Shown one piece after another: positions 5,735-22,076 of a stretch of 36,217 nucleotides of DNA (positions are counted from its first letter, which is position 1; every line of letters begins with the position of its first letter). Source of the stretch: Gemmatimonadota bacterium (lineage in GTDB: Bacteria > Gemmatimonadota > Gemmatimonadetes > Gemmatimonadales > Gemmatimonadaceae); assembly GCA_031127095.1 (NCBI GenBank), contig JARIEX010000019.1:1-36217 (forward strand), read 5' to 3'. The notes beneath the pieces were generated by a model. It saw only the letters and a program-made list of their open reading frames with translations, ran no database searches and was not told the origin of the DNA. Made by a program: the position numbers and the translations under genes.

Positions 5735-7306
5735 TCAGCGAATGGTCTCCCAGGCAATCGACGCAATCTCTCCCAGTGCCTGCCCCGCCAACGCCGCTGG
5801 ATCGGGGACTTTCGCGGCCACGTTGTTCACGTACACCGCAAACGCGATCTCCCGCCCGCTCTTCGTGGTGAAATAGCCGGCGAGCCCCTTGCCGTGCGTG
5901 ATCGAACGGCGGTTGAGTGGATCGTAGCTGCCGAACGTTCCGGTCTTGGCGAACACCTTCCCTGCGGCGGGGCTCCCCTTCTGGATGGCGGCCAGCGTCC
6001 CATCCACGCCCAGCGTCGGCAGCGCCGCCTTGAATCCCGCCGCATACGGGCGCTTCCACACCATCGCCAGAAAGCGTGTCATGAATGCCGGCGAGAAATA
6101 GGCGTCGCCCCCCGCTCCATCACCCTGCACCGCACCTTCCAGATCCAACCCGTTCCGTATCATGAGCTCACGCGCAATATCGAAGCCGGTGCGTGATGGT
6201 TCACGCGATGCGTCGAGCGCCGCCAGCGTAAGCGGCAGGTTACTGGCGTGCAGGTTCTGACTCGTCTTCAGCAGTACCCTCGCCTCGGCCAGCAGCGGCA
6301 GCGACACATGCTCGGCCACCAGCAGCGAGTCGGTGTACGCTGGGCGCAACGTCGCCGCGTCCACGGGGCGCGCGGCCAACCGCGGGATGGCCGCCACGCC
6401 GGCTGCCCGGAGCGCCTCGGCGAGCACGATCTCCCCGAAACGGCTCGGGACAGCAACGACCCACCGGGGATTCGACCGCGCTCCACGCGGCACCGTTCCG
6501 GTGATCACCAACACGCGATGGTCGCGGTTCGTGCTGTCTTCGACCATACGCAACGCGGAGGCCGACCCGCTGTCGCCGGTGGTCACGCGGGCTTGCACCG
6601 TCAGGTAGGGCGTCTGCGGGGACGCCGTCACGGTCGCCAACGCGCCCGCGGATTCGCCCGGCGTCACCACCAGATCGATCACGTTGTCGTTGATGACCAG
6701 CGGCGACATCGTCACCCGGGTGCCCAGTTCGCGTGCGCCCTCCGCGAACAGCGAGGCGTCCACGATCACCTGTCCTGTGACGCCGCGAATGCCGCGTGCC
6801 GCCGTCTGCGCCGCCAGCGCCTTGATCACGGTCAGCGGATCATCCGCCAGCGGCTGACCACCATACGAGTGATCCTGATCGATGAATGCGTACTGGCCGT
6901 CGGCACGCGCGCGCCCGGAGAGGTTGGGGTCCCCGCTCGCCACCAGCACCACGTCCCCCTGAACCACGCCGGCCACGATGGGTCCGGTGCGATACATCCT
7001 TGTGCGGAAGCGGTAGTCGGGACCCAGCACCTCCAGCGCAGTGGCCATCGTGACCACCTTGGTCGTTGAGCCGGGAACGAACAGTTTCTCGCTATTGACC
7101 GCAAAGACGGGTTGTCCCGATTGCAGGTCATAGAACTCCATGCCCCACGACGCGTGGGCAAACTCCGGCCGCGCCATCACCTCGGCGATACGTCGCGGGG
7201 GATTGGGTTGCGCCTCACTCGCCGCCGGCGCCGCCGACAGTGCAACGGCAAAAACAAAAGTCCAAGCCAACACCGTCGGCTTGGACAAGAAAGTGTGTTG
7301 AATCAT
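5735..7306 (-). CDS. dacB: D-alanyl-D-alanine carboxypeptidase/endopeptidase (PBP4, DacB type)
   Basis: A protein of 523 residues with a signal peptide ending near residue 32 (PAASEAQ). The three class-C penicillin-binding-protein motifs are intact: SxxK at S80-K83 (PGSTTK), SxN at S349-N351 (TSQN) and KTG at K454-G456 (AKTGTFG). The large insert between the first two motifs is typical of peptidase family S13. The enzyme removes the terminal D-alanine from peptidoglycan stem peptides or cuts D-Ala-mDAP cross-links in the periplasm. It lies 72 bp downstream of the SusD gene on the same strand and is probably in the SusC-SusD transcript. That suggests a digestive role, releasing peptides for uptake, in addition to or instead of wall housekeeping. 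Confidence 0.88.
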   Translation of the reverse strand: MIQHTFLSKPTVLAWTFVFAVALSAAPAASEAQPNPPRRIAEVMARPEFAHASWGMEFYDLQSGQPVFAVNSEKLFVPGSTTKVVTMATALEVLGPDYRFRTRMYRTGPIVAGVVQGDVVLVASGDPNLSGRARADGQYAFIDQDHSYGGQPLADDPLTVIKALAAQTAARGIRGVTGQVIVDASLFAEGARELGTRVTMSPLVINDNVIDLVVTPGESAGALATVTASPQTPYLTVQARVTTGDSGSASALRMVEDSTNRDHRVLVITGTVPRGARSNPRWVVAVPSRFGEIVLAEALRAAGVAAIPRLAARPVDAATLRPAYTDSLLVAEHVSLPLLAEARVLLKTSQNLHASNLPLTLAALDASREPSRTGFDIARELMIRNGLDLEGAVQGDGAGGDAYFSPAFMTRFLAMVWKRPYAAGFKAALPTLGVDGTLAAIQKGSPAAGKVFAKTGTFGSYDPLNRRSITHGKGLAGYFTTKSGREIAFAVYVNNVAAKVPDPAALAGQALGEIASIAWETIR

Positions 7307-7327
7307 GGAGAGATCCGGAAAAGGTCA

Positions 7328-7373
7328 GGGGGACGCCAACCACGTCGTCATCGACGTCGCCAACGCCCCCCCT
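7328..7373 (-). promoter_or_regulatory. Inverted-repeat region between the SusD and DacB-type genes
   Basis: A G-rich run near 7328 faces a C-rich run near 7372, and an inner ACGTCG-TCAT-CGACGT hairpin (7341-7356) lies between them. The structure could partly terminate transcription or protect the message between the two genes. It is modest and may have no function. Confidence 0.25.
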
Positions 7374-7378
7374 ATCGA

Positions 7379-8638
7379 TCAGCGATTCGTGCTCGGGTTG
7401 TTCAGCCGCTCCACATCCGGAAGCGGTAGGCACTTGTTGGAACCGTAGGTGCCACCGCCGTTGGGGAACACCGCTCCGTTCGCGGGAATCAGCGGGATGT
7501 TGAACCTGATGGTATCGAACAAGCGGTGCCCCTCGATGAAGAGCTCCCGACGGCGCTCCTGCAGCACCTGCGCGGCGATTTCCGACGCCACCGTGCTGCT
7601 GAACGCCGGCAGATTGGACGCTGTGCGCAACTGGTTGATCAGCTGCACCGCCACCGCGCCGCCCGCTACTTCCGCACGGATCAACGTCGCCTCACGCCAC
7701 GTCGCGATGGGGATCGGGTCATTCAGCGACTTGTACTTGTTCTGCACCCACAACCGCACCGACGGCATCGATCCCCCACGCCCGGCGTCGGTCACGTTCA
7801 CGCGCGGGTCCGTCACTCCACTCACCTGCTGCGCGCGGAACTGCGTATCCACCGTGACCGTGCCGGTGGTGTTGTTGAAGCGGAAGATGCGGTTTTCCGC
7901 ACGCCCGGCGGCCGACGTGGTCTTGGCCGTGTACACGAAGCCAACCGGAACCAGCGCCGCATCAGCGGCAGCTTCCGTGCGTTTTCCCTGATTGAGACGC
8001 GCCCGGGCGCGCCCCACCAGCGCCATGTTGCGTAAATCGGCTGGTGCTCCTGCGGCATTGATGACGCGCGTGAATCGCTCTTCGGCTAACGCGAACACGG
8101 CCGCCGGCTGAAGCTCCGCCCCAAGATCGAAGGCGCACGAGCAGAACATCTCTCCCATCAGCACGTAGCTGTAGCCGGCAAACGCGGCGGCCTGCGCCTG
8201 CAGCGCTGCCCGCCCGGGCACCTCGACGTCCGTCCACTTGTCGAGCAACCGCAATACTTGATCGGCCTGAAAGCGCGCGATCGAGAGTGGGGTGTACACG
8301 CCGAACCCGCCGCACCCGCCAGAGGCGTATAGCGACGTCGCCGGGAAGTTGGTTCGCCGGTCGATATCCCACGTCGCGGCGTTTGCTTGCGCGTCGGCAA
8401 ATTCATCAGCCAGCGTACCGCCGGTCAGAATGAAGTTCCCCAGCGCGCATTCGAAGTCGGCGACCGCTCCCGACACCAGTACGGTGGCATTCGACGGCTG
8501 CAGCAGGGTCTGTTCGAGGATACGACTTGGCGCCTCAACTTCGAGGAGCGTGCCGCAGGAAGACAGCCCCCCGGCGGCCAGCGCCACGACGGCCACCCGG
8601 GCAGCACGCGCCCGGAGACTACGCCTCAGATGTCTCAT
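7379..8638 (-). CDS. SusD/RagB-family surface lipoprotein
   Basis: A protein of 419 residues. A positively charged N-terminus (RHLRRSLRARAARV) and hydrophobic stretch end in the lipobox LSSC (C28), followed by the family's typical start GTLLEVEAPSRI. The rest is rich in helices. The C-terminal segment with RRRELFIEGHRLFDTIRFN is the conserved SusD/RagB signature. Such proteins cap the TonB-dependent SusC channel outside the cell and bind the substrate. I prefer the ATG at 8638; an in-frame ATG at 8647 would add three residues but has a poorer ribosome-binding site. The gene follows the SusC gene by less than 30 bp. The pair usually imports glycans or peptides; the neighbouring enzymes suggest peptides here. 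Confidence 0.85.
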   Translation of the reverse strand: MRHLRRSLRARAARVAVVALAAGGLSSCGTLLEVEAPSRILEQTLLQPSNATVLVSGAVADFECALGNFILTGGTLADEFADAQANAATWDIDRRTNFPATSLYASGGCGGFGVYTPLSIARFQADQVLRLLDKWTDVEVPGRAALQAQAAAFAGYSYVLMGEMFCSCAFDLGAELQPAAVFALAEERFTRVINAAGAPADLRNMALVGRARARLNQGKRTEAAADAALVPVGFVYTAKTTSAAGRAENRIFRFNNTTGTVTVDTQFRAQQVSGVTDPRVNVTDAGRGGSMPSVRLWVQNKYKSLNDPIPIATWREATLIRAEVAGGAVAVQLINQLRTASNLPAFSSTVASEIAAQVLQERRRELFIEGHRLFDTIRFNIPLIPANGAVFPNGGGTYGSNKCLPLPDVERLNNPSTNR

Positions 8639-8666
8639 GAACGTCATCTCGCGTTTGGGTGGATGA

Positions 8667-11600
8667 TTAGTAAGTCAGCGACACGGACAACAGCAGCTGC
8701 GCCAGCGGCGGCACCTGCGCTTGCTCCAGTCGCACGAATTGCTGCAGGGTAAAGAAGTTCTCCGGGTCCGTCCCCGGGTAATTCGTCCACAGCGCCAGGT
8801 TGCGTCCCGACAGTGTGAGCGACCCCGAGCGCGCCTTGACCAAGCGGGCGATGTTGGGACCCATCTGATACGCCACGGAGAGCTCCCGCAGCCTGGTGAA
8901 GCTGGCGTTCTGGTATACGAAGTTCCGCAGCACATTGGGCGACTGCACCTGCGCCACCAGTGCGGGGTCGTACTTCTCCGGCTCGTGGTTCGACATGCAC
9001 AGCGCGAACACCTGGCACCGCGCGCGGTCGTTGTTGTTGAGGGTCACATTGCCCCCCTTGAAGTCGACCTGTCCGTACAGTCTGAACCGCTTGAACAGCG
9101 TCACCGAGGCGTTGTACGAGCCCTCGAGTCCCGGGTCGGGCCGCCCGAGAAACACTCTGGGCGCCACCGCCTGTCCGCTGGCGTTCAGGCACGGTGTCGT
9201 TCCGCCCTTGCCGTTGTCGCAGAGCGCGTTGATCGCCCGCTTGGTCACCGGATCAAAGGTGGCCGAGACGACACGGAAGTCGTACCAGGAGGCCACCGGG
9301 CGACCCTTGATGTGCCGCTGCGCCCCGAACTGGATGTATTTCTCCCCGTTCTCGTCGAGCGGCAGCGGCAGGTCGCCCAGGTCCCGCACCTGGTTGTCAT
9401 TCTTCGAGATGTTGAAGCCCAGGTCAACATTCAGGTTCTCGCGCGCCACGGCGGCGTAGCGCATCGACAATTCCACGCCTTGGCTACGGATCTTGCCGAC
9501 GTTGATGAACCGATCACCGGCAAACCCCGCCGACGGCGCCACGGGCTGCGAGAGAATTCCGTCTTCGGTGTTGCGTCGATACAGCGTGAAATCCGCACTC
9601 AGACGGTCCTGCAGGAAAGTGCCGTCGAAGCCAACCTCCGTTTCCTTCCCTCGTTCCGGACGAAGGTCTGGATTGCCCAGCGACTGCGGGGACACCGCCG
9701 AGCTGCCGTTGCCGCCGGTGGTCGCCGAGTACGTGCGCAGCGCGGAGTTCACCACCGGCTGCTGCCCGGTTTCACCGTACGCCGACCGCAGTTTGAGCTG
9801 GTTCACCCACGCGAAGGGAAACCACGCCTCTTCACTGATGACCCACGTGCCCGCCACTTTGGGATAGGTGGTCCAGCTGAAGTCCTCGCCGAACGCGCTG
9901 TTGTTGTCCACGCGCAGCGCCGCCGTCAGATACGCCCGGTCGTTCAGGTTGACCTGATGCTGCCCGTAGAACCCCAGTGTGGCGTTTTCGAAGTAGTCCT
10001 CGCCGCCGAAGGTGGTGGCGGCTGCGTCCACCAACGTGAGACCACCCGCCGGGAAACCTTCACCACGTGCGGCGAGCGCGTAGGTCTGCCGCTTGAAGTA
10101 CTGGGCGCCGAAGGAGGTGCTCGTCTGCACGCCGAACAGCCGTCGCTTGGCGGTCGCCGCATAGTCCACCGACGAGACCGACAGCTCCTGTCGGCGCGTG
10201 AGCTTGTTGCCGTTCTGATCAACCGGGCTTCCGAAGAACTGCCGGTTGTACGGAGTCATGCGCTCCGTCTGGTTCACGTTGTCTTCACCCGTCAGGTCGT
10301 TACCGACGACGAGGCGCTGGGTGAGCCAGGTACCCACTCGGTGATTGAACTGCAGCGATGCCGTCGTGCGCTTCACGTTCTGATACTGTTTGAATGCTCC
10401 CCAGAACGCCTCCGGTGGCGCTGAATAGAAGCCGCGGCGCAGTTTCTCCGCGTCAGTGACTGGCGCTTGTCCGAAGTAGGCGGAGAACCACATCCCGCCG
10501 CCGGCCTCCAGCGGCACGTTGATCGTCTGCTGCGTGGTGTTGAAGGTCGCCTGAATATCGAGCGACTTGTACGGCGACAGGGAGATGTTGCCCGCGCCCG
10601 TCCACCGGGCGAGGTGGTTGGTGGGCTCGATGCCCTTATCGTTGTCGTAGCTGCCACTGAAGTTGTACTTCACGGCTTCGGTGCCACCGTTGAGGCCCGC
10701 GCTATACGACTGGGTCAGCCCGTTGGCGAAGAGCTCGCGTCCGGCTGCCCGCTCCGCGGCGACGGGGTTCCACCCGGCGATCGTCCCGTCCGGCATGCGA
10801 CGGTAGGTGGTGGGAATGCGGTTCTCCGCATCCTGAAACCAGTTGTTCCCCATCCGCGTGTTCGTGGTGAACACCGGGCGCCCCGCCTTGCCGCGCTTGG
10901 TGATGATCTGGATGACGCCATTGTTGGCTTCGGTGCCGTACAGCGTCGCCGCCGCGGGTCCCTTGATGACTTCAATACTCTCGATGTTCTCGGGGTCGAT
11001 GTCATTCAGGCGGGAGATGACACCCGAGGAGAAGAACTGCGAGCGCGGGCCCGTGGACACATCGTTCGCAATGCGGACGCCGTCGAGGTAGATGAGCGGC
11101 TGGTCGTTGAGCGACAGCGATGCGGCACCGCGGATGCGGATGCGCGGTCCCGACCCGATGGCGCCCGATCCGCCGGCAAGCACCACGCCGGCCGCACGGC
11201 CATTCAGCAGCGACGAGATGTCGGGCGACGGGGCGATGCTCTGAATCGCCGCAGCGTCGATCTTGGTGACGGAGTTGCCGATGGCGCGCTTCTCCACCGG
11301 CTCGGCCGTGCCGGTGATGACGACCTCGCTCAGGCTGTTGGGCTGTTCCGCGAGGAAGATGCGAATATCACTGCGCCCCACGGTCACCAACTGGGTGGTC
11401 GGCTTGTAACCGATGCGCCTGACCTGCAGCGTGACCTGCGCGCCGGAGATGGTGGAGAGACGGAAGCCGCCGTTGCCATCGGTGATGCCGCCGATGTTTG
11501 TCCCCTGCACGAGGACCTGGACGCCGTCGAGGCCGCGAAGGTTTTTCGCGTCGACGATCTGACCGCTGATCGTCCCCGACCCCTGTGCGCTGAGCGTCCG

Positions 11601-11708
11601 GGTCGGCGGGAGCAGCAATGCGACGGTCAGCAACGCGAGGTACCGGGCACAAACCAGTCGTCGCCTTTTCTCGGCGGGTTGGTTCAACAGCGGATGTTCC
11701 GAACTCAT
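8667..11708 (-). CDS. SusC/RagA-family TonB-dependent outer-membrane transporter
   Basis: A protein of 1013 residues. A signal peptide ends near LSAQG (residue 42). It is followed by a carboxypeptidase-regulatory-like beta-sandwich (SGQIVDAKNLRGLDGVQVLV, about 45-130), a TonB plug containing SLLNGRAAGVVL, RIRIRGAASL, PLIYLDGVRI and IEVIKGPAAATLYGTEANNG, then a long beta-barrel ending in LLSVSLTY. This is the order of SusC/RagA transporters, which move large substrates into the periplasm using TonB energy. AAAGGAGG lies 6 nt before the ATG. The SusD partner lies directly downstream. A palindromic operator candidate about 60 bp upstream and the divergent GntR gene suggest control by that regulator. 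Confidence 0.93.
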   Translation of the reverse strand: MSSEHPLLNQPAEKRRRLVCARYLALLTVALLLPPTRTLSAQGSGTISGQIVDAKNLRGLDGVQVLVQGTNIGGITDGNGGFRLSTISGAQVTLQVRRIGYKPTTQLVTVGRSDIRIFLAEQPNSLSEVVITGTAEPVEKRAIGNSVTKIDAAAIQSIAPSPDISSLLNGRAAGVVLAGGSGAIGSGPRIRIRGAASLSLNDQPLIYLDGVRIANDVSTGPRSQFFSSGVISRLNDIDPENIESIEVIKGPAAATLYGTEANNGVIQIITKRGKAGRPVFTTNTRMGNNWFQDAENRIPTTYRRMPDGTIAGWNPVAAERAAGRELFANGLTQSYSAGLNGGTEAVKYNFSGSYDNDKGIEPTNHLARWTGAGNISLSPYKSLDIQATFNTTQQTINVPLEAGGGMWFSAYFGQAPVTDAEKLRRGFYSAPPEAFWGAFKQYQNVKRTTASLQFNHRVGTWLTQRLVVGNDLTGEDNVNQTERMTPYNRQFFGSPVDQNGNKLTRRQELSVSSVDYAATAKRRLFGVQTSTSFGAQYFKRQTYALAARGEGFPAGGLTLVDAAATTFGGEDYFENATLGFYGQHQVNLNDRAYLTAALRVDNNSAFGEDFSWTTYPKVAGTWVISEEAWFPFAWVNQLKLRSAYGETGQQPVVNSALRTYSATTGGNGSSAVSPQSLGNPDLRPERGKETEVGFDGTFLQDRLSADFTLYRRNTEDGILSQPVAPSAGFAGDRFINVGKIRSQGVELSMRYAAVARENLNVDLGFNISKNDNQVRDLGDLPLPLDENGEKYIQFGAQRHIKGRPVASWYDFRVVSATFDPVTKRAINALCDNGKGGTTPCLNASGQAVAPRVFLGRPDPGLEGSYNASVTLFKRFRLYGQVDFKGGNVTLNNNDRARCQVFALCMSNHEPEKYDPALVAQVQSPNVLRNFVYQNASFTRLRELSVAYQMGPNIARLVKARSGSLTLSGRNLALWTNYPGTDPENFFTLQQFVRLEQAQVPPLAQLLLSVSLTY

Positions 11709-11785: not shown

Positions 11786-11974
11786 AAGGCACAAGAGGGG
11801 TGACCACTCGGCGCCTCGACTGCCCGCACACGACATGACCTGCCAAAACGGCTGCCAAGAACCACTGCTCGGCACGATGCGTGCGATCGACGCACGCCGA
11901 GCCCCTCACGAAATCGCCGTCTCGCTCCGGTCGGAGGGCACCACGCTCCGAGACGCCGCGACGGTGCCGCGGTG

Positions 11975-12679
11975 ATGGTCGAATCGACCATCCCGCGCAC
12001 GGAGATGATCGCGGAAGTGTTCCAGCGGCTGCGCCGGCTGATCGTGGAAGGGCATCTGGGACCGGGCGTCCGCTTGGTCGAGACCGAGTTGGCGACGCGG
12101 TTCGGCGTGAGCCGCACCCCGATCCGCACCGCGCTCTCTCAGCTCCGGCAGGAGGGTTTTGTCGAAGCGCTCGGAGAGGGGCGGCAGTCACGGCTGACGG
12201 TGACACCCGTGACGCGGCACGATGCCATCGAGATCTTCGGGATCGTGGGCGAGATCGAGGGGCTGGCGGCGCGCTGGGCCGCGGGTTTGCCGGAACCGAC
12301 GCGAGCGGCGCTAGTGACACAGCTGGAGCAGCTCAACGCCGCGATGGCGGCTGCCGCGACACAGTCGCCGCCCGACGCGCTCGAGACCATCCGGCTGGAC
12401 ACTGCGTTCCACCGCGAGTACGTGCTGGCTGGCGCCGGTCGGCGGCTGCGGTCGTTCCACGAGTCGATCAAGCCGCAGGCGGACCGCTTCATCTACGTCT
12501 ACCACACGACCCTGACCACCGGTGTCATCGTATCGACAGGGGAGCACGCCGTCATCATCGGCGCGATTCGCGACGGCGACGCCGCGGGTGCGCATCGGGC
12601 GGTGCGGAGTAATTGGGAGAACGCGGCGGCGCGACTCAGCACGTCCATCACGCTCGTGGGCGAGCGAGGCGTGTCGTGA
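11975..12679 (+). CDS. GntR-family transcriptional regulator with FCD domain
   Basis: A protein of 234 residues. The N-terminal winged helix-turn-helix (about 8-75) carries the GntR signature RLVETELATRFGVSRTPIRT. The C-terminal all-helical FCD domain (about 85-222) has the expected metal-site histidines in DTAFHREY, GEHAVIIGAI and GAHRAVRSNW. FCD regulators sense small carboxylates, sugars or amino acids and usually repress nearby catabolic genes. Start choice: GTG at 11972 is directly followed by ATG at 11975, and neither has a good Shine-Dalgarno sequence. The stop codon overlaps the start of the lipoprotein gene by 4 nt, so regulator and two hydrolases form one operon, divergent from the SusC operon. 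This arrangement suggests it controls both. Confidence 0.88.
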   Translation: MVESTIPRTEMIAEVFQRLRRLIVEGHLGPGVRLVETELATRFGVSRTPIRTALSQLRQEGFVEALGEGRQSRLTVTPVTRHDAIEIFGIVGEIEGLAARWAAGLPEPTRAALVTQLEQLNAAMAAAATQSPPDALETIRLDTAFHREYVLAGAGRRLRSFHESIKPQADRFIYVYHTTLTTGVIVSTGEHAVIIGAIRDGDAAGAHRAVRSNWENAAARLSTSITLVGERGVS

Positions 12680-13962
12680 CGCGCCCCGTGCGCCGCCGCG
12701 AGGCGTGGGCCGCGTGCGCCGCCGCCGTGATGCTTGCGGCGTGCAGCGCGGCGCCTGCCAGTCCGACGTCGCCCCCGCCACCCGTCGTGCCGACGATGCC
12801 GCTCAGCGGCCTCGCGATCCCTGGCATGACGAGCGTCGACCAGGTGATGGCGCGGCTCATGACGAACTGGGACATCCCGGGCGGCGCAGTCGGCATCGTG
12901 AAGGACGGGCGGCTCGTGTATGCACGCGGCTTCGGCTACGCGGACGCGGAGGCGAAGCGCGTCGCCTCGCCCGACGCGCTGTTCCGGATCGCGAGTCTGT
13001 CGAAGCCGATCACTGCAGCGGCCGTGCTCCGGCTCGTGGAGCAGAACCGCCTCTCGCTTGACGCGAAGGCCTTCGCGCTGCTGAGCGACCTCAAGCCGCT
13101 GGCCGGCGCGACGGGAGACCCGCGCATCGCGGACATCACCGTACGCCACCTGCTGCAGCATGCCGGGGGCTGGGACCGCGATGCAAGCTTTGACCCGATG
13201 TTCCGGTCGACCGAGATCGCGGCGGCGGCGAACACGCCCATGCCCGCGAGCGCCGAGGCGGTCATCCGCTACATGCTCGGCCAGCGCCTCGACTTCGATC
13301 CGGGGACGCGCTACGCCTATTCGAACTTCGGCTACGCGGTGCTCGGTCGCATCATCGAGCGCGTGACCGCCGGCCCCTATGACAAGTTCGTGCAGGATGC
13401 GGTGCTGGCGCCGGCCGGCATCCGCCGCATGCGGCTCGGCCGTTCGCTCTACGCCGACCGCGCGCCCGACGAGGTGCGCTACTATGACCAAGCATCGCTC
13501 AATTCGGTGTTCGGCGGCGGTGCCGTACCCGCCCCCTACGGTGGCTTCAACCTCGAGGCGATGGACGCACACGGCGGCTGGGTCGCGTCGACCGTCGACC
13601 TGCTGCGCTTCGCCACCGCGGTCGACCGACTGCCCACGCGACCGGACATCCTCGCCGGTGCGACGCTGGACATGATGACGGCCAAACCGCCGTCCCCGCT
13701 CTGGGACGGCTCGGCGTTCTACTACGGCATGGGCTGGCTCGTGCGCCCCGCGGAGCGGAACTGGTGGCACACCGGATCGCTTCCTGGTACCGCGTCGATC
13801 ATGGTGCGCACGGGGACCGGGCTTGCGTGGGTGGCGCTCTTCAACGCGCGCGCGATCAAGCCCAACTCCACGTTCCAAAGCGAGATCGACGGCGCGATGT
13901 GGCAGGCGGTGAATGGTGTCACCGAGTGGCCCGCGCACGACCTGTTTTCGACCTTCCCATGA
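12676..13962 (+). CDS. Beta-lactamase-fold serine hydrolase, probable lipoprotein
   Basis: A protein of 428 residues starting at GTG 12676; GTGA fuses this start with the stop of the GntR gene (12677-12679), which decides the start. The N-terminus has several arginines, a hydrophobic stretch and the lipobox LAAC (C23), so the protein is probably membrane-anchored. The class-C beta-lactamase/DD-peptidase motifs are present: SLSK (S107-K110), YSN (Y215-N217) and HTG (in WWHTGSLPG). Relatives include D-aminopeptidases, DD-carboxypeptidases, esterases and beta-lactamases. In this locus a D-amino-acid peptidase is the likeliest role, but motifs alone do not settle the substrate. It overlaps the next gene by ATGA. 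Confidence 0.85.
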   Translation: MTRPVRRREAWAACAAAVMLAACSAAPASPTSPPPPVVPTMPLSGLAIPGMTSVDQVMARLMTNWDIPGGAVGIVKDGRLVYARGFGYADAEAKRVASPDALFRIASLSKPITAAAVLRLVEQNRLSLDAKAFALLSDLKPLAGATGDPRIADITVRHLLQHAGGWDRDASFDPMFRSTEIAAAANTPMPASAEAVIRYMLGQRLDFDPGTRYAYSNFGYAVLGRIIERVTAGPYDKFVQDAVLAPAGIRRMRLGRSLYADRAPDEVRYYDQASLNSVFGGGAVPAPYGGFNLEAMDAHGGWVASTVDLLRFATAVDRLPTRPDILAGATLDMMTAKPPSPLWDGSAFYYGMGWLVRPAERNWWHTGSLPGTASIMVRTGTGLAWVALFNARAIKPNSTFQSEIDGAMWQAVNGVTEWPAHDLFSTFP

Positions 13963-16373
13963 CGATGAGCCTGATGCCTCGCGCCCCTCGCGTGCTCGCC
14001 GCGCGCACCCTCGCTACCGCGCTATTGCTTGCGCCCCTCTCACGCTCGGTGGCGCAGGCTGCGCCGGGCATGCCCACGGATTACTCGCGCGCCATCCGGC
14101 GGCTCGATTCGCTCGTCGCGCGCGAGGTCGCCGACAAGCGGCTGCCCGGCCTCTCCATTGCGCTGGTGGACGACCAGCGCACAGTGTGGTCGCGCGGCTA
14201 CGGCATCGAGCGCGTCGATCCGGCCGTGCCGGCGACGAGTGAAACGGTTCACCGCGTCGGCTCCGTCTCGAAGCTGTTCACGGACATCGCCGTGATGCAG
14301 CTCGTCGAGCGCGGCGTGTTGGATCTCGACGCGCCGGTGTCGCGGTACGTGGGCGACGTGCTGCCCGACGGGGGCAACGCCCCGCGCATCACCCTCCGGC
14401 AGCTCATGTCGCATCGCTCGGGCCTCCTGCGCGAGCCGCCCGCCGGCCACTACTTCGATTCCACCGGCACCACGCTTGCGGCCACTGTGGCGAGTCTGCG
14501 CGGCACGTCGCTCGTCTACCAGCCGGGCACGCGCACGAAGTACTCCAACGCCGGCATCGCGGTGGTGGGCTACGCGCTCGAGCGCACACAGCAGCAGCCG
14601 TTCGCGGACTACGTACAGCGCGCGGTGCTGCAGCCGATGGGGCTCGCGCACAGCGCGTTCACGCCCGAGCCCGCGCTCACGCGGCACCTCGCCGATGCCG
14701 TGATGTGGAGCTACGACAACCGGGAGTGGGCAGCACCCACGTTCGGTCTCGGCATGGCGCCGGCCGGCAGCATGTACACGACCGTAGACGATCTGGCGCG
14801 ATTCGTCTCGGTGCTCTTCGCCGGTGGGCGTGGCCCCGCTGGACAGGTGATTGCGCGCGCGACGCTCGACTCCATGTGGACGCCGCAGTTCGCCGCTCCC
14901 GGCGCCACGTCCGGCTACGGCCTCGGCTTCGCGCTCTCGCAGTTCGACGGACGCCGCCGTGTGTCGCACGGCGGCGCGATCTACGGCTTCTCCACCGAGC
15001 TGTCGGCGTTGCCGGACGACCGGCTCGGCGTCGTCGTGGTGGCCACCGCCGACGGCGCCAACGACGTGGTGTCTCACATCGCGGACGAGGCGCTCCGGTT
15101 GATGCGCGCGGCGCGCGCCGGTCTGCCGCTGCCCGACATCGAGCGCACGACGACGCTGGCGCCCGAGACCGCGCGCCGTCTCGCCGGTCGCTATGGCATG
15201 GGGGAGCGCGCCGTGGACCTGGTCGAGCAGTCCGGCCGACTCTTCATGCTGCCCACGCGCGGCGGATTCCGCGCCGAGCTGCGCGCGCTGACCGACAGCA
15301 CACTCATGGCCGACGACCGGCTGTCGTACGGCACGCGCGTGCGCCTGCTGCACGACGGCCTCGCGTTGGGCACCGACACGCTGCGGCGGGTGGAACTCCA
15401 GATGCCGCCGGCCGCACGCGCGGCGTGGCGGCCGATCATCGGCGAGTACGGCTGGGACTACAACACGCTCTTCTTGCTGGAGCGCGACGGCCGCCTGAAC
15501 GCGCTGGTCGAGTGGTTCTATCAGTACCCGCTCACCGAGGTCTCGCGCGACGTGTACGCGTTCCCCGCGTGGGGTCTGTACGATGGTGAACGCGTGGAGC
15601 TGCGGCGCGACGCCAGCGGCCGCGTGACCGAAGCGATCATGGCGGGCGTGCACTTCCCGCGACGCGCCGTGGGCACCGAGGACGGCTCGCAATTCACCAT
15701 CACCCCCGTGCGTCCGGTCGCCGAGCTTCGCGCCGTCGCGCTGGCCGCAACGCCGCCCACGGAGACGGGCCCCTTCCGTGCCGTGGACTTCGTATCGCTG
15801 CCGAGCCTCGATCCCTCGATCAAGCTCGACGTGCGGTACGCCACGTCGAACAACTTCATGGGCACGCCGTTCTACTCGTCGGCGCGCGCGTTTATGCAGC
15901 GCCCTGCCGCTGAAGCGGTCGCCCGCGCGTCCCGCACGCTGCGGGCGCACGGCTACGGGCTGCTGGTGCACGATGCGTATCGCCCGTGGTACGTGACCAA
16001 GATGTTCTGGGACGGCACGCCGGCGGCGCAGCACGTTTTCGTGGCGGACCCGTCGCAGGGCTCGCGCCACAACCGCGGCGCGGCGGTGGACATCACGCTG
16101 TACGACCTGAAGACGGGCCGGCCGATCGAGATGCCGGGGGGCTACGACGAGATGTCGAGCCGCAGCTACCCGGACTATCCCGGCGGGACCTCACTCCAGC
16201 GCTGGCATCGCGCGCTGCTACGTCGTGCCATGCAGGCGGAAGGCTTTACGGTGTACGACGCCGAGTGGTGGCACTTCGACTTCAACGACTGGCGCCAGTA
16301 TCCCATCGGGACCGCCACATTTGAGGAAATCGAGCGCGCAGCCGGCCGGCGCGGGGGCACGCGATCACGCTGA
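13959..16373 (+). CDS. Two-domain enzyme: beta-lactamase-fold hydrolase fused to VanX-type D-Ala-D-Ala dipeptidase
   Basis: A protein of 804 residues starting in the ATGA overlap with the previous stop. A signal peptide ends near VAQAAP (residue 35). The first domain (about 45-400) has the serine-hydrolase motifs SVSK (S102-K105), YSN (Y195-N197) and HGG (VSHGGAIYGF). A beta-rich middle part (about 400-600) resembles the C-terminal extension of other such hydrolases. The last about 195 residues match the M15D dipeptidase family: LDVRYAT, VHDAYRPW with the substrate-binding arginine, SRHNRGAAVD (zinc ligands H704 and D711) and EWWH (E769, zinc ligand H772). VanX cuts free D-Ala-D-Ala. The fusion could release D-amino-acid dipeptides from larger peptides and then split them. 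There is no sign of frameshift across the junction. Confidence 0.88.
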   Translation: MTMSLMPRAPRVLAARTLATALLLAPLSRSVAQAAPGMPTDYSRAIRRLDSLVAREVADKRLPGLSIALVDDQRTVWSRGYGIERVDPAVPATSETVHRVGSVSKLFTDIAVMQLVERGVLDLDAPVSRYVGDVLPDGGNAPRITLRQLMSHRSGLLREPPAGHYFDSTGTTLAATVASLRGTSLVYQPGTRTKYSNAGIAVVGYALERTQQQPFADYVQRAVLQPMGLAHSAFTPEPALTRHLADAVMWSYDNREWAAPTFGLGMAPAGSMYTTVDDLARFVSVLFAGGRGPAGQVIARATLDSMWTPQFAAPGATSGYGLGFALSQFDGRRRVSHGGAIYGFSTELSALPDDRLGVVVVATADGANDVVSHIADEALRLMRAARAGLPLPDIERTTTLAPETARRLAGRYGMGERAVDLVEQSGRLFMLPTRGGFRAELRALTDSTLMADDRLSYGTRVRLLHDGLALGTDTLRRVELQMPPAARAAWRPIIGEYGWDYNTLFLLERDGRLNALVEWFYQYPLTEVSRDVYAFPAWGLYDGERVELRRDASGRVTEAIMAGVHFPRRAVGTEDGSQFTITPVRPVAELRAVALAATPPTETGPFRAVDFVSLPSLDPSIKLDVRYATSNNFMGTPFYSSARAFMQRPAAEAVARASRTLRAHGYGLLVHDAYRPWYVTKMFWDGTPAAQHVFVADPSQGSRHNRGAAVDITLYDLKTGRPIEMPGGYDEMSSRSYPDYPGGTSLQRWHRALLRRAMQAEGFTVYDAEWWHFDFNDWRQYPIGTATFEEIERAAGRRGGTRSR

Positions 16374-16629: not shown

Positions 16630-18279
16630 TTACCTCACCCCGTCCCAGCCGGGGCCGCGCAGCACGGTGCCGGGCTTGGCGCCGGTGGACTTCCCTCCCT
16701 CCAGCACCACGCTGCCGTTCACCAGCACATGGCTGATCCCCTCGCTGGGGAGCGCCGGCTCGGCGAAGGTGGCGCGATCGCGGATGCGGAGCGGGTCGAA
16801 CACCACGATGTCAGCGGCCAGCCCCGGGGACAGGCGCCCGCGGTCGTAGGCACCGATCTCGTTGGCCGCCACCGCGGAGGCCTTGTGGACCGCCTCCTCC
16901 AGGGTGAGGACGCCGAGCTCGCGGACGTAGCGGGCGAAGATTCGCGGGAACGCGCCCCACGCGCGCGGATGCGACGCCACCGACGAGCCCCCCGCAGGGC
17001 CGACATCGGTGTCGAACGACGTGAACGGCTCGCGCATGGCCTTGATCTTGTTGGCCTCACTCATGGATTGCGGCATGGCGAACGCCTCGCGCTGCGCGAT
17101 GTCGAAGAACACCGTCCACGCGTCCTTCCCGGTGCGATCGGCGATCCCCTGAACCGACAGCCCGTTGTGCGCCTTGTAGTCATCGTGCTGGATGTTCCCC
17201 AGCACGATGCGGTTCCAGTCCTTGCCGGCGTGTGCGTACCAGTTCTCCCACCCGCTCTCTGTCTCCATCTCGGCGCGCATCCGCGCACGGACGGCCGGGT
17301 CCTTGAGCGATTCCATCAGCGCGCGCTGGCCGCGCTCGGCGTTGCGGGGGTGCAGCAGCGCGCGAATCCCCAGCCCATTGTTGATGTAGGGGTACACGTC
17401 CACCGCCACGTCCTGCCCCGCAGCGCGGGCGGCACGGATGCGCGCGATGGCCAGGTCCATCTTCCCCCAGTTCCCCTCGCCTGCAGTCTTCAAGTGGTAG
17501 ATGTGCACGGGGGTGTTGGCGGCGGCACCGATCCGCAGCGCCTCGTCAATCGCCTCGATGAGGCGGTCCCCCTCGTTGCGCATGTGCGTGTAGTAGCGCC
17601 CACCGTGTCGCCCGGCGACGGCGGCTAGGGCGGCGATCTCCTCCTCGCTGGCGAAGATGGCCGGTGGGTAGATGAGCGAGGTGGAGAGCCCGATGGCACC
17701 GGCCTGCATGGCCTCTTCCACGTAGGCGCGCATGCGGTCCAGCTCGGCGGGGGTGGCCTGTCGCGCGGAGTCGCCGATGACGAGGCGGCGCAGCTGCGTA
17801 TGCCCCACGTTCTGCGCCACGTTGAGGGGCATGCCGGCGGCTTCCAGCTTGCGGAAGTACTCGCGCATGGTGCGCCAGCCGCGGAGCTGCGCGCCCCCCC
17901 CTTCCAGAGGAGCGGACGAGCCCCCCTCGCCAGCCTGGATGGTGGTGACCCCCTGGGTGAGGAGGTTGATGGCGGCCTCGCCGCCGCGGTCGATGAACAT
18001 CTCGCCGCTCTGCCCCATCATGTCGATGAAGCCAGGGGCAACGACCTGGTCGGCCACGTTGATGACGCGCTTGGCGCGGGCGGGATCGAGGCGTCCGATG
18101 GCGGCGATGCGGCCGTTGGCGATGGCCAGGTCGGCCTGATAGGAGGGGGCGCCAGTGCCGTCCACAATGCGCCCGCCCTGAAGGATGAGGTCGAAGGCGG
18201 GGGTGGGCGCTGGTTGCGCGGCGAGGGGGGCGGCCAGGAGGGCGAGGAGGGCCAGCGCGCGGCGTGGGAATCGTGGCAT
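16630..18279 (-). CDS. Exported N-acyl-D-amino-acid deacylase-family amidohydrolase with altered metal motif
   Basis: A protein of 549 residues with a signal peptide (ALALLALLAAPLAAQ, residues 8-22). The family start QGGRIVDGTGAPSYQADLAI is clear. Later family segments are present: GVTTIQAGEGG, YYTHMRNEGD, VHIYHLKTAG and SHPRAWGAFPRI. D-aminoacylases hydrolyse N-acyl-D-amino acids or related amides. Here the first metal motif (PGFIDVHxH in classical members) reads PGFIDMMGQ, so both histidines are replaced by M88 and Q90, and the cysteine position in the GNCG loop reads GEGG. The two later histidines are kept. The enzyme may therefore use one metal ion or different ligands. An upstream in-frame ATG at 18330 would start inside the operator palindrome and precede the signal peptide, so 18279 is preferred. 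Confidence 0.8.
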   Translation of the reverse strand: MPRFPRRALALLALLAAPLAAQPAPTPAFDLILQGGRIVDGTGAPSYQADLAIANGRIAAIGRLDPARAKRVINVADQVVAPGFIDMMGQSGEMFIDRGGEAAINLLTQGVTTIQAGEGGSSAPLEGGGAQLRGWRTMREYFRKLEAAGMPLNVAQNVGHTQLRRLVIGDSARQATPAELDRMRAYVEEAMQAGAIGLSTSLIYPPAIFASEEEIAALAAVAGRHGGRYYTHMRNEGDRLIEAIDEALRIGAAANTPVHIYHLKTAGEGNWGKMDLAIARIRAARAAGQDVAVDVYPYINNGLGIRALLHPRNAERGQRALMESLKDPAVRARMRAEMETESGWENWYAHAGKDWNRIVLGNIQHDDYKAHNGLSVQGIADRTGKDAWTVFFDIAQREAFAMPQSMSEANKIKAMREPFTSFDTDVGPAGGSSVASHPRAWGAFPRIFARYVRELGVLTLEEAVHKASAVAANEIGAYDRGRLSPGLAADIVVFDPLRIRDRATFAEPALPSEGISHVLVNGSVVLEGGKSTGAKPGTVLRGPGWDGVR

Positions 18280-18653
18280 GGCGTCGGGGAAGAGGAGGGG
18301 CGCCGATCTCGTATACGAATTCGTATACAATTGGCGTCAAGCTTGCGCGCCAGCGCTCACCCTGTCAACGAGCGGGACGCGCTCACCCCTCGACGGAACG
18401 AACAGTCGTCGTCCTTCCGCAGACACCGCGATCTCGTCCGGGACACAGGCGCCCAGTGCAGCGACGACGGTGAGCGAACGCGCGGCGATTCGCAGGGGAT
18501 CGATGGTTGCGGTACACGCGCGCGCGAGCGGCGATGTTGCGTGCACATCGCTCTCACGAGGGTGGAGACGCGGACGTACTGTTTGAGCGACAGCTGCCGA
18601 TCGATCCATCAGTCTGCTCAGCGCATCTCTCATCACGCTTCGCCGGAGTTCGC
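18280..18653. other. Divergent intergenic region
   Basis: 374 bp between the deacylase (minus) and the DmpA-type gene (plus). Apart from the 18-bp palindrome I see no defined feature. A 99-codon open frame on the minus strand (18337-18636) has no recognisable domain and is not called a gene. Confidence 0.4.
18311..18328. promoter_or_regulatory. Perfect 18-bp palindrome, operator candidate
   Basis: GTATACGAATTCGTATAC reads the same on both strands and stands out by its AT content. It lies 32-49 bp before the deacylase start and about 325 bp before the divergent DmpA-type gene. Its shape fits a dimeric repressor of the GntR type, and the GntR/FCD gene 6 kb away is the obvious candidate; that link is inferred. 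Confidence 0.6.
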
Positions 18654-19868
18654 ATGCGTTCTCTTTCTATCACCCTCGCGTTGCTGCTTGCCGGTGTGTC
18701 CTCGCTGGGTGCGCAGCGCAAGCCGCGCGAGCACGATCTCAAGCTGCCCATCGGCGGCACGCCCGGCGCGTTGAATGCCATCACGGACGTGGCCGGTGTG
18801 GAAGTCGGGCACAGTACGATCATTGCCGGCAGCGGCACGCTGGTGGTTGGACAGGGGCCGGTACGCACGGGAGTGACCGTCGTACATCCGCGCGGCAGGG
18901 CCAATCATGATCCGGTGTTCGCGTCGTGGTTTGCGCTCAACGGCAACGGCGAAATGACGGGCACGACGTGGATCACGGAGAGCGGGTTCCTTGAAGGGCC
19001 CATCGGCATCACCAACACGCACAGCGTGGGCGTGGTGCGCGACGCCATCATCAAGTGGGAAGTCTCGCAGAAGAACGTGCTGCAGCCGTGGTGGCTGCCG
19101 GTGGTCGCCGAGACGTACGACGGTGGCCTGAACGACATCAATGGTTTCCACGTGAAGGAATCGCACGCATTCGCCGCGCTCGATGGCGCCGCGGGCGGCC
19201 TCCCCGCCGAAGGCGCGGTGGGCGGCGGCACCGGCATGCGCTGCCTCGGTTTCAAGGGCGGCATTGGCACCGCGTCACGCACACTGCCGGCGGCGCAGGG
19301 TGGCTACACCGTGGGCGTGCTCGTGCAGTGCAACTTCGGTTCGCGCCGCGATCTGCGGATCGCCGGAGTGCCGGTGGGCGAGGAGATTTCCAACCTGCAG
19401 CCGTGCATTGCCAACACCGAGCCCGCGCCGGCGAGCGCCACCGTGCGGCGATGTGACGCGCCCACTGACCGGGACGCGACCGACGCGCCGGAACAGGGCT
19501 CGATCATCGTGGTGGTCGCGACCGATGCGCCGCTGCTGCCGCATCAACTCAAGCGCGTGGCGACGCGCGTGTCGTTGGGCATTGGCCGACAGGGGGGATT
19601 CGGCGGGAACGGTTCCGGCGACATCTTCGTGGCCTTCTCCACCGCCAATACCAACAGCTGGTCGTCAGACTCGGTGTCGTCGGTGCGGATGGTGAACAAC
19701 GAGCGCCTCTCACCGATCTTTCAGGCAACGGCACAGGCCACCGAGGCCGCCATCACCAACGCGCTGCTCGCCGCCGAGACCATGACCGGCGCCAACGATT
19801 TGCGTATATACGCGATGCCGCTGGATCGTATGCTGGCCGCGATGCGCAAGTACGGGCGGTTGCCCTGA
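18654..19868 (+). CDS. DmpA-type aminopeptidase/D-esterase (peptidase family S58/P1)
   Basis: A protein of 404 residues with a signal peptide ending at SSLGAQ (residue 21). Family hallmarks: GALNAITDVAGVEVGHSTI at the start, GNGEMTGTTW, GAVGGGTGMRCLGFKGGIGTAS, YTVGVLVQCNFGSRRDLRI, and the autocleavage region EQGSIIVVVATDAPLLPHQL. In DmpA a Gly-Ser bond is cleaved and the serine becomes the N-terminal nucleophile; here this is G282-S283. DmpA removes N-terminal L-residues and also hydrolyses D-amino-acid amides and esters; relatives act on beta-peptides. Export and position beside the deacylase and VanX-fusion genes suggest work on D-amino-acid peptides. I chose ATG 18654, with GGAG upstream, because the signal peptide begins there. 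Confidence 0.88.
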   Translation: MRSLSITLALLLAGVSSLGAQRKPREHDLKLPIGGTPGALNAITDVAGVEVGHSTIIAGSGTLVVGQGPVRTGVTVVHPRGRANHDPVFASWFALNGNGEMTGTTWITESGFLEGPIGITNTHSVGVVRDAIIKWEVSQKNVLQPWWLPVVAETYDGGLNDINGFHVKESHAFAALDGAAGGLPAEGAVGGGTGMRCLGFKGGIGTASRTLPAAQGGYTVGVLVQCNFGSRRDLRIAGVPVGEEISNLQPCIANTEPAPASATVRRCDAPTDRDATDAPEQGSIIVVVATDAPLLPHQLKRVATRVSLGIGRQGGFGGNGSGDIFVAFSTANTNSWSSDSVSSVRMVNNERLSPIFQATAQATEAAITNALLAAETMTGANDLRIYAMPLDRMLAAMRKYGRLP

Positions 19869-19983
19869 GCGCGCACGTCGGCGTGGATCGGCGCTGCGCG
19901 TCGTGCCACCGCCCCGACTCATCGATCGCGCGCGGTCGGCGATCGCGTCGTTTACGCGACAGCCCCCAACCGAAATTCCTATC

Positions 19984-20031
19984 CTGCCCGGGCCACGACT
20001 CGCGCTGACCGAGGCCACGCGCGCCAGATAC
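19984..20031 (+). pseudogene. Possible IS91-family transposase C-terminal scrap
   Basis: The short frame LPGPRLALTEATRARY resembles a segment in the C-terminal part of one IS91-type transposase subgroup as I remember it (PAPRLAPTEATRRW). It directly precedes one copy of the dispersed repeat that begins ATACTC. Sixteen codons are weak evidence, and a database search is needed. Confidence 0.3.
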
Positions 20032-20074
20032 TCGACTGATAGACGACCCACCCCGATTGGAATTCCTCTCCCGG
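20028..20074 (+). repeat. Dispersed repeat, copy 1
   Basis: ATACTC, a 16-nt spacer, then ACCCCGATTGGAATTCCTCTC. Very similar to the copy at 22011-22059 and, with a 5-nt spacer, to those at 24279-24314 and 35996-36030. It lies between the DmpA-type and sulfotransferase genes, so it is unlikely to be a promoter. It may be an end of an IS91-like element. Confidence 0.5.
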
Positions 20075-20101
20075 CGCGACGAGATCAGCACACGATATTT
20101 G

Positions 20102-20119
20102 CTCGAGAGAGGACTCGAG
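20102..20119. terminator. Small hairpin downstream of the sulfotransferase gene
   Basis: Two copies of the self-complementary CTCGAG (20102-20107, 20114-20119) form a 6-bp stem with a 6-nt loop, 12 nt beyond the sulfotransferase stop. An AT-rich stretch follows in the direction of transcription. It could be a weak terminator. Confidence 0.3.
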
Positions 20120-20131
20120 AATGCACGAGAC

Positions 20132-21139
20132 CTACTGGCGTCGGTTCGTGGTGGTCCTCCTGCCAAACCGGATTTCATTCGTATCTCGAAAGCACGCTGC
20201 AAAGTCTTCGTACGTGTCATATCCCAACGGCTTCATATGTGCGTCCCACTTTTGTTGCAAGAACGCCAGGGCCTCATCATTGAATTGCTGCGGATGCGCT
20301 TGTACCGCCACTTTCGCCCCTGGCGCGAGCTGCGAAAGGTCGGCGACTCGACCTAATGTCCTGGCGCGCTCATAGGGTTCATCGAACAGCGTCATGTGTT
20401 GAGCCATGAAGGCTTTGGTACTCATCGCGAGTGTCTTGTCCATCAACTCGGGCGTCACGGGCCCAAGGCCCATAAAGTCTGCAATACGATGAATATTTTC
20501 CTCCATGTTCTTCACAAGATCTTCATACACCAATAACAAAACGGACGGGCAGTCTTTGAGCACATGATACTCTTGGTAGTATTCCCAGATGCTCGCCCGG
20601 CCTTCTCGTCCTTGAATAAACGGAGTTTGCATGAGAAACGAAGATGCGTCCATCGACGTGGCAATGGGTACCTGTTTCGCCAAAAAAAAGTTGTAAAAAG
20701 AGATCGCTGTCTTGGCTGGATCTCTCACGGTGACAATGTACTTGCAACCCCGATGGACACTGGCCATCCGCAAATGAGATTTGAAGACGCGTGGAAAGAA
20801 TTGGCTGCCCTCCACATTGGGATCATAGCCAATATCCCAGGATAACAGAGGCCAGGGAACGACCTCATACAGTGTCTTCATCGATGCAAAATCGACCGTT
20901 GCACCCGTGCGAAGGACATGGCAAAGCCACGTCACCAAGGTTGTGCCTGTTTTGGCAAAAGTCGACACGATGATGTCCGTTGGCCGTACTCGAAACTCTT
21001 CGACGGCTTTTCGGACAGACTCGTTCGACATCATGGTGTCGGGATGGCCGATCGGTATGTACAGAAGCTCGGCGGGCAACGGTGCAATCTCCGCAGGATT
21101 CGAGGCAGCATTGCCCATGGTCGTAAATGAAAGGGTCAT
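20132..21139 (-). CDS. PAPS-dependent sulfotransferase, AT-rich and probably acquired
   Basis: A protein of 335 residues of the sulfotransferase family (Pfam Sulfotransfer_1). The 5'-phosphosulfate loop reads VSTFAKTGTTLVTWL, corresponding to the usual YPKSGTTW, and the 3'-phosphate site reads VTVRDPAKTAISFYNFF. Such enzymes move sulfate from PAPS to an alcohol or amine. The acceptor is unknown, and the relatives I recall include the eukaryotic cytosolic type. Base composition differs strikingly from its neighbours: bases 20641-20700 are about 43% GC, with A-runs. The ATG at 21139 is chosen because the upstream in-frame extension is GC-rich and non-homologous; ATG 21118 is also possible. An attC-like site lies just behind its 5' end, so the gene may be a cassette. 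Confidence 0.85.
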   Translation of the reverse strand: MTLSFTTMGNAASNPAEIAPLPAELLYIPIGHPDTMMSNESVRKAVEEFRVRPTDIIVSTFAKTGTTLVTWLCHVLRTGATVDFASMKTLYEVVPWPLLSWDIGYDPNVEGSQFFPRVFKSHLRMASVHRGCKYIVTVRDPAKTAISFYNFFLAKQVPIATSMDASSFLMQTPFIQGREGRASIWEYYQEYHVLKDCPSVLLLVYEDLVKNMEENIHRIADFMGLGPVTPELMDKTLAMSTKAFMAQHMTLFDEPYERARTLGRVADLSQLAPGAKVAVQAHPQQFNDEALAFLQQKWDAHMKPLGYDTYEDFAACFRDTNEIRFGRRTTTNRRQ

Positions 21140-21248
21140 CCGGAGATTCCGAGAAACGCGGCGCGAATCGTGAGGAAGAAGTAGGCATCGTCGCGATACC
21201 CGTCGGCGACGCGCTGATCCTGCAATCAAGTCGGCGTCTGCCACAGAC

Positions 21249-21341
21249 ATCCAACGCCTGGCGTTCTGCCGCGGGCGATCACAATAAGTCGCGAGCGCAG
21301 CGAGCATCCACTTCGTCCGACTGCAGCACGCATCGTTATGC
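21249..21341 (+). other. attC-like integron recombination site 1
   Basis: A 93-bp element. The left core is ATCCAAC (RYYYAAC form, 21249-21255), followed by GCCTGGCGTTCTGCCGCGG. The right part is CGTCCGACTGCAGCACGC, then the core GTTATGC (21335-21341). The inner arms GCGTTCTGC and GCAGCACGC pair at 8 of 9 positions. The same layout and the 15-nt stretch CCGACTGCAGCACGC recur at 31696-31788. This is how integron attC sites are built. No integrase gene is in the window. The stop codon of the HigA-type gene lies inside the right core. Confidence 0.5.
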
Positions 21342-21908: not shown

Positions 21909-22010
21909 CCCACCGTGACCGCCGTTCCAACGGCGCTCAACGCGCACGAGCGAGACAGAGGGCACGCCGCCGCCCGTCACGCGGCGATGGCGAGGTTGGC
22001 GATCGCGCCG

Positions 22011-22059: not shown

Positions 22060-22076
22060 TTGGAGTGCCGTCCCAC

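Follow-up and report, generated by a model that had tools for sequence, protein, structure and literature searches.

A single chain joining an S12 serine peptidase to a predicted VanX-type dipeptidase in several bacterial phyla, with a probable role in D-peptide catabolism

We analyzed a 36,217-nucleotide stretch of a Gemmatimonadota bacterium (assembly GCA_031127095.1, contig JARIEX010000019.1; the whole stretch is hereafter the window) that carries a gene joining a beta-lactamase-fold serine peptidase of family S12 to a VanX-type dipeptidase. The fusion gene occupied 13959-16373 on the forward strand as one uninterrupted open reading frame (ORF) of 804 amino acids, from the ATG at 13959 to the TGA at 16371-16373. 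Residues 1-35 (13959-14063, +) resembled a Sec-type signal peptide by eye and were disordered in the structural model. They were followed by an S12 domain at residues of about 45-385 (14091-15113, +), two consecutive beta-barrels recognized by structure matches at residues 394-571 (15138-15671, +; barrel 1 at about 394-479 and barrel 2 at about 486-571) and a predicted VanX-type zinc D,D-dipeptidase domain of family M15D at residues of about 608-790 (15780-16328, +). Pfam placed PF00144 at residues 49-370 (E 7e-68) and PF01427 at residues 609-777 (E 6.8e-36), both well above their curated cut-offs.

The S12 half carried SVSK at 102-105, YSN at 195-197 and HGG at 337-339, so that the PF00144 match was accompanied by the SxxK, YxN and HxG motifs that characterize S12, or penicillin-recognizing, peptidases. 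The VanX half carried DAYRPW at 672-677, SRHNRGAAVD at 702-711 and EWWH at 769-772, which include R675, H704, D711, E769 and H772; we take the two histidines and the aspartate to be the zinc ligands, the glutamate to be catalytic and the arginine to be the equivalent of Arg71. An earlier sequence-only reading of this DNA (the original prediction) had proposed a single frame at these coordinates, all six of these motifs intact, a spacing of about 600 residues between the halves and a VanX-type C-terminus, and each of these points was borne out, the spacing being correct for SVSK to SRHNRG. It had also called the protein exported. Export is probable from the Sec-like N-terminus and from the relatives, of which 62 of 75 scored sequences passed a crude hydrophobicity cut-off of 1.8, although the N-terminus of the fusion itself scored 1.72 and fell below it.

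The whole protein was modelled with AlphaFold2 from a 75-row alignment, giving a mean predicted local distance difference test score (pLDDT) of 91.0 and a predicted template modelling score of 0.88, a pLDDT below 50 being confined to residues 1-35 and 802-804. A separate model of residues 389-804 showed a pLDDT of 91.9. Against this C-terminal model, VanX (1r44) gave a Z score of 22.2 and a root-mean-square deviation (rmsd) of 1.9 over 179 residues at 32% identity, while other M15 entries (VanY-like, VanXY) gave Z scores of about 9-10. The predicted model thus has the VanX fold expected of an M15D VanX-type dipeptidase, and the Arg, His, Asp, Glu and His of the domain aligned with the active site of 1r44. 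For the fusion model, the top Foldseek ranks were the IS11 esterase, the Lip3 DL-peptidase, Pab87 and the D-aminopeptidase 1ei5. VIA-align gave Z 40.8 for Lip3 (9sn1; rmsd 3.4 over 417 residues, model residues 39-569), 40.2 for Pab87 (2qmi; rmsd 6.1, 396 residues) and 40.0 for IS11 (rmsd 6.2, 398 residues), a tie within 1 Z unit. The VIA-align matches listed for the full model were occupied by S12 chains, so that the absence of VanX there is uninformative, and the C-terminal part was searched separately. Barrel 1 resembled the C-terminal domain of 7spn (Z 12.3) and barrel 2 those of 8fek (Z 11.8) and D-aminopeptidase 1ei5 (Z 10.0). In the predicted model the chain is therefore built like D-aminopeptidase, an S12 enzyme bearing two barrels at its C-terminus, with a complete VanX domain appended; the original prediction had proposed structure prediction as a check, and the S12 and VanX folds both appeared, together with the two barrels.

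We scanned 84,980 species genomes, in which 173 loci encoded a relative, and retained the best 80. One uninterrupted ORF across both halves was present in 75 of these 80 loci, a proportion that is not the frequency of the fusion, as keeping the best 80 favours full-length relatives. The five exceptions were a frameshifted locus (L083), three loci reaching contig ends (L084, L086 and L087) and one whose match ended at residue 468 (L088). The 75 intact records came from Gemmatimonadota (25), Planctomycetota (24), Acidobacteriota (10), Bacteroidota (7), Pseudomonadota (6), Verrucomicrobiota (1), candidate division KSB1 (1) and one other bacterium. They included the complete genome of Singulisphaera acidiphila (NC_019892.1) and named Roseiconus, Stieleria, Flavilitoribacter and Sandaracinobacter strains. 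The domain search proposed in the original prediction therefore found the same architecture in several phyla, and the outcome that was to overturn that prediction, two genes joined by an assembly error, was rejected on the same 75 loci, complete genome included. The fusion gene is genuine and occurs in several bacterial phyla.

Conservation was scored on 76 sequences (the 75 relatives and the window protein) at 44-93% identity. S102, K105, Y195, N197, H337 and G339 of the S12 half and R675, H704, D711, E769 and H772 of the VanX half were identical in 76 of 76, and the middle position of HGG was glycine in 68. As both active sites are invariant, they are under selection together. Columns conserved at 95% or more numbered 22 in residues 481-600 (barrel 2) versus 2 in residues 371-480 (barrel 1).

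Shorter forms were also present. The VanX domain matched at E 1e-10 in 110 of 249 Gemmatimonadota genomes, and the best 30 Gemmatimonadota loci (the window included) comprised 23 fused forms, 3 cut by contig ends and 4 matching only from about residue 490. A further 14 stretches were selected for short open frames, and all 14 encoded barrel 2 and VanX with no S12 half in the same chain. In a tree of 98 barrel-2-VanX units, the 14 short forms nested within the 76 fused sequences and the starred branches forced at least four changes; the tree was made by a quick method, rooted on 8 distant M15 proteins and carried long-branch warnings, and alone it cannot separate gain from loss. As barrel 2 is a domain associated with S12, these data are read most simply as an ancient fusion from which the S12 half was lost repeatedly. 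Simple fission was rejected for two loci with a neighbouring S12 gene (L128 and L129), where that S12 shared no more than 30-34% identity with the fused S12 and was not a clear fission product. Within the genus of the window, a match was found in only 2 of the 11 genomes listed, its own included.

The C-terminal half shares fold and active-site residues with the M15D D-Ala-D-Ala dipeptidases VanX (1r44) and DdpX, from which the fusion differs in being probably exported, joined to S12 and without a VanA-type ligase beside it. Since it scored 98.3 of 320 bits for the VanX equivalog in NCBIfam and 144.3 of 176 for DdpX, both below the cut-offs, we describe an M15D-type domain and do not file the protein as VanX or DdpX. 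Paenibacillus Lip3, the top VIA-align match, likewise has an S12 domain followed by C-terminal domains, but has no VanX match, and its known substrate is a lipopeptide; available passages of the source describe cleavage of DL-amide bonds in syringafactin by Lip3 and Lip7 (PMC13188892). Pab87, a CubicO peptidase, shares the S12 domain, a lipocalin-type barrel and the HxG triad, whereas the fusion has two barrels and a VanX domain. The CubicO protease motifs given in the accessible text on Pab87 (YAEAF/L, FFYLN and ERY; PMC2651629) were all absent from the fusion protein sequence. The same text describes Pab87 as a D-aminopeptidase and DD-carboxypeptidase that acts on D-Ala-p-nitroanilide and takes terminal D-Ala off muropeptides. 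The Ochrobactrum D-aminopeptidase DAP (1ei5) has S12 and barrels as in the fusion, with a C-terminal domain like barrel 2, but lacks a VanX domain, and the fusion scored 63.5 bits against the 443-bit cut-off of its equivalog PRK13128. The best-scoring S12 equivalog was AmpH at 100 bits, far under its 266-bit cut-off. VanXY, a D,D-dipeptidase/D,D-carboxypeptidase, offers a precedent for two D,D-activities on one polypeptide in the part of the source available (PMC8698665), but it uses a single M15 active site, whereas the fusion joins two unrelated folds.

Each domain is from a known family, and what appears to be new is their combination in one chain. No model for the S12-VanX combination was among the 25 best NCBIfam matches listed, no solved structure spanning both halves was among the 60 best Protein Data Bank matches listed (each covers one half), and no description of an S12-M15D fusion was found among the open-licence papers listed by the literature searches. 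One paper names PF00144 and PF01427 together, but in its accessible passages for separate Bacillus proteins. The architecture may already be in public protein databases as automatic annotation.

In the window, the fusion was the third of three forward-strand genes that each overlap the next by 4 bases. A GntR/FCD transcriptional regulator (11972-12679, +; PF00392, PF07729) overlaps the start of a 428-amino-acid S12 serine hydrolase with a lipobox-like N-terminus (VMLAAC; 12676-13962, +; PF00144, E 6e-62) through GTGA, and the stop of the latter overlaps the fusion start through ATGA. Convergent with the fusion was a D-aminoacylase-like amidohydrolase (16630-18330, -; PF07969, E 2.7e-19), followed by a family S58 (DmpA-type) peptidase gene (18507-19868, +; PF03576, E 2e-113), whose place in the pathway is uncertain and which stood beside the fusion in 1 of 44 loci, that of the window alone. 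On the other side lay an S13 D-Ala-D-Ala carboxypeptidase of DacB type (5735-7306, -; PF02113, E 3e-57), a SusD/RagB-type outer-membrane binding protein (7379-8647, -; PF07980, E 4e-9) and a SusC-type TonB-dependent receptor (8667-11708, -; PF00593, PF07715, PF13715). The nearest relative with a flank (L010) had the same separate S12 gene (90.8%), SusC/SusD and an amino-acid permease. Two further S12 genes lay at 21888-23741 (+) and 31909-34098 (-), and both matched DUF3471, the latter with a score under the cut-off; S12 domains numbered four in the 36-kb window, and the genome held 13 matches. Two distant organisms had an Asparaginase_2 family gene close to the fusion, at 34395-35399 (-) in the window and at 6642-7742 (+) in a Roseiconus locus (L074).

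The neighbourhood, on which the original prediction had not drawn, carries most of the functional evidence. An initial clustering of flanking ORFs was dominated by antisense frames of conserved genes; clusters that overlapped the fusion were dropped, and others of antisense appearance were set aside by eye. Neighbours were counted at three sets of loci: 44 fused ones with full flanks, 33 control stretches taken from related genomes, and 12 short forms. The counts (fused/control/short-form) were 8/0/0 for DgcN-like, 7/0/0 for DgcA-like, 9/2/0 for amidohydrolase and 3/0/0 for S13 genes; 4/0/0 for SusD, 5/3/0 for SusC/TonB and 4/0/0 for permease genes; 5/2/0 for other S12, 5/1/0 for amidase, 4/0/0 for class A beta-lactamase-like, 1/1/0 for asparaginase, 1/0/0 for S58 and 1/0/0 for GntR genes. 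A DgcN- or DgcA-like neighbour was present at 10 of 44 fused loci versus 0 of 33 controls (Fisher p = 0.002), and any of DgcN, DgcA, amidohydrolase or S13 at 13 versus 2 (p = 0.009). DUF1611 was counted in 37 of 75 genomes, picked for longer contigs, where 28 strong copies lay in 21 genomes; 9 copies, in 9 of the 37 genomes, fell within a fusion flank versus 0.11 expected, with loci counted as independent despite kinship. In the accessible part of the source, dgcN is described as the key gene of a pathway that irreversibly racemises acidic D-amino acids and their amides (PMC12363236).

Gene orders read with a simple gene caller showed tight same-strand arrangements: DgcN-DgcA-fusion in Stieleria (L066), and DgcN-DgcA-Asparaginase_2-fusion with a convergent flavin adenine dinucleotide oxidase in Roseiconus. 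In Fuerstiella (L055) the order was DgcN-DgcA-[S12-amidohydrolase]-[S12-S12-VanX]. In Sandaracinobacter (L081), DgcN and an amidohydrolase were divergent from TonB receptor-class A beta-lactamase-like-fusion-amidase. An S13 DacB-type gene lay near the fusion in L017, L022 and L039. The class A beta-lactamase-like gene (PF13354) lay directly upstream of the fusion, in an apparent operon, in three Sphingomonadales loci (L079, L081 and L082), and a PF13354 gene was also found 1.8-2.1 kb downstream on the opposite strand in two Gemmatimonadota loci (L009 and L010).

The same functions were fused in other combinations. The Stieleria protein was S12-VanX-S12 in a single chain, and its C-terminal S12 was 43.5% identical over 386 amino acids to the separate upstream S12 of the window (homologues) versus 31.7% over 205 amino acids to the fused S12. 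Six Planctomycetota (L046, L054, L055, L061, L063 and L070) encoded S12-S12-VanX, the first domain being partial in L046, and the S12-amidohydrolase of L055 was itself a fusion. A Gemmatimonadota locus (L129, 6006-8621, -) encoded a VanX-type dipeptidase fused to a D-aminoacylase-like amidohydrolase (871 amino acids), the start of which overlapped the stop of an S12 gene. Beside the fusion in an Acidobacteria locus (L022, 10253-13630, +), an S13 carboxypeptidase was fused to a D-aminoacylase-like amidohydrolase (1126 amino acids). On a plasmid of Gemmatirosa kalamazoonensis (L128, NZ_CP007130.1) these functions were separate genes on one strand, in the order GntR, Tricorn-like S41, S12, M19 dipeptidase, short VanX, permease and amidohydrolase. 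Genes fused in several combinations usually belong to one pathway. Elsewhere (L139, 4619-8340, -), a short VanX gene preceded a pair of genes encoding C-terminal domains of D-Ala-D-Ala ligase, a Ddl-plus-VanX grouping that resembles the 'pdx' arrangement of Micromonosporales as described in available passages of PMC8698665.

We consider the fusion to be, probably, an exported bifunctional D-peptide hydrolase that serves to break down or recycle peptides containing D-amino acids, the likeliest substrates being the stem peptides of peptidoglycan. By analogy with the D-stereospecific peptidases closest to it in fold, the S12 part would trim peptides containing D-residues in the periplasm, where the fusion is presumed to reside. 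The VanX part would hydrolyse small D,D-dipeptides, for example D-Ala-D-Ala, to free D-amino acids, and neighbouring amidohydrolases, permeases and DgcN/DgcA-like enzymes would take up and convert these. As D-amino-acid catabolic genes are associated with the fusion in part of the loci, the context favours D-peptide catabolism over resistance. The two-step cleavage of D-peptides suggested in the original prediction is plausible and fits this catabolic role, but a pentapeptide would not yield D-Ala-D-Ala through any of the S12 activities in the literature consulted, and the two sites may therefore simply work side by side on one pool of peptides.

Several observations weigh against this role. 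At 31 of the 44 fused loci, DgcN, DgcA, amidohydrolase and S13 were all absent within about 8 kb. The amidohydrolase alone (9 of 44 versus 2 of 33) was not significant (p = 0.07), and its family occurs in 230 of 249 Gemmatimonadota genomes. The D-Glu loci were drawn from few lineages and their counts are not independent. The DgcN model reached 445.6 of 480 bits (L082 protein) and the DgcA model 230 of 400 (L074); as the equivalog cut-offs were missed, these neighbours are named DgcN/DgcA-like only. The genome of the window carries DUF1611 and DgcA-like genes on contigs other than that of the fusion. IS11, an esterase, equalled the peptidases in structural match, and the S12 half appears dispensable, apparently having been lost repeatedly.

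A broader proposal, which we hold only tentatively, is that the fusion lies at the centre of a modular, as yet unnamed system for D-peptide utilisation whose hydrolases are variously fused. Such a system would span Gemmatimonadota, Planctomycetota, Acidobacteriota and Sphingomonadales and would comprise SusC/SusD or TonB uptake, S12 and S13 D-peptidases, a VanX-type dipeptidase, a D-aminoacylase-like amidohydrolase, a permease and DgcN/DgcA-like conversion. The barrels would perhaps form a Pab87-like closed chamber, in which D,D-dipeptides would pass between the two active sites.

Remodelling of the cell's own wall is an unlikely alternative to D-peptide catabolism. Here the S12 half, as an AmpH-like DD-carboxypeptidase or endopeptidase, would trim the cell's own stem peptides in the periplasm and the released D-Ala-D-Ala would be destroyed, for growth or wall recycling and not nutrition. 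AmpH was indeed the top S12 equivalog, albeit with a score far below its cut-off, and the S13 DacB-type genes, in the window and near the fusion in three other loci (fused to amidohydrolase in one), are consistent with such a role. The patchy occurrence within the genus and the uptake (SusC/SusD, permease) and D-amino-acid catabolic neighbours argue against it.

Detoxification, in which competitors' non-ribosomal peptides containing D-amino acids (lipopeptides, glycopeptides) would be broken down as Lip3 and Lip7 cut syringafactin in the accessible part of PMC13188892, is distinctly unlikely. Lip3 was the top structural match of the S12 domain and barrels, but Pab87 and IS11 tied with it, the VanX domain would have no obvious role, and the annotated neighbours included no recognised biosynthesis, efflux or resistance genes save the class A beta-lactamase-like gene in 5 loci. 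It is very doubtful that one half is catalytically idle, with VanX alone mattering and S12 a vestigial or binding module: the short forms nesting within the fused clade at four or more places favour this, but the S12 catalytic residues were invariant in all 76 fused sequences and extra S12 domains were gained in Planctomycetota.

A glycopeptide or beta-lactam resistance factor, removing D-Ala-D-Ala termini and hydrolysing beta-lactams, is hardly credible despite the VanX-type domain with every catalytic residue and the PF13354 genes near five fused loci, as neither the window nor the flanks of the 44 scanned fused loci yielded a Ddl/VanA-type ligase, the class C beta-lactamase equivalog scored 75.2 of 415 bits, and no plasmid in PLSDB carried 80% of the protein. 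The S12 half has the peptidase HxG triad and not KTG, the class C beta-lactamase motif. The effect on glycopeptide or beta-lactam response put forward in the original prediction was thus not supported. Plasmid-borne resistance was rejected separately, as 0 of 72,556 PLSDB records covered 80% of the fusion protein (1,216 matched part of it). The genome, 83% complete, had one strong D-Ala-D-Ala ligase match, as a normal wall requires. In the vanHAX route VanX works with VanH and VanA, according to available passages of PMC8698665; no VanH was among the annotated window genes, although no model search was aimed at it.

If D-peptide catabolism is the true role, VanX-type enzymes would have an exported, non-resistance function in many environmental phyla, linked to the turnover of cell-wall D-amino acids, which make up a large and slowly degraded pool of organic nitrogen. 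It would also warn against labelling VanX-like genes of environmental genomes as resistance genes. A set of bifunctional and trifunctional enzymes is now open to testing.

A promoter and terminator scan found nothing and was uninformative at 70% GC (guanine plus cytosine), and a defence system was rejected, with no PADLOC match among five window proteins. GC fell to 0.571 at 19501-21000 versus about 0.66 for the window, over a sulfotransferase gene (20132-21307, -). A single ORF of 1015 amino acids at 24409-27456 (+) carried APH kinase, M23 peptidase and class III aminotransferase domains.

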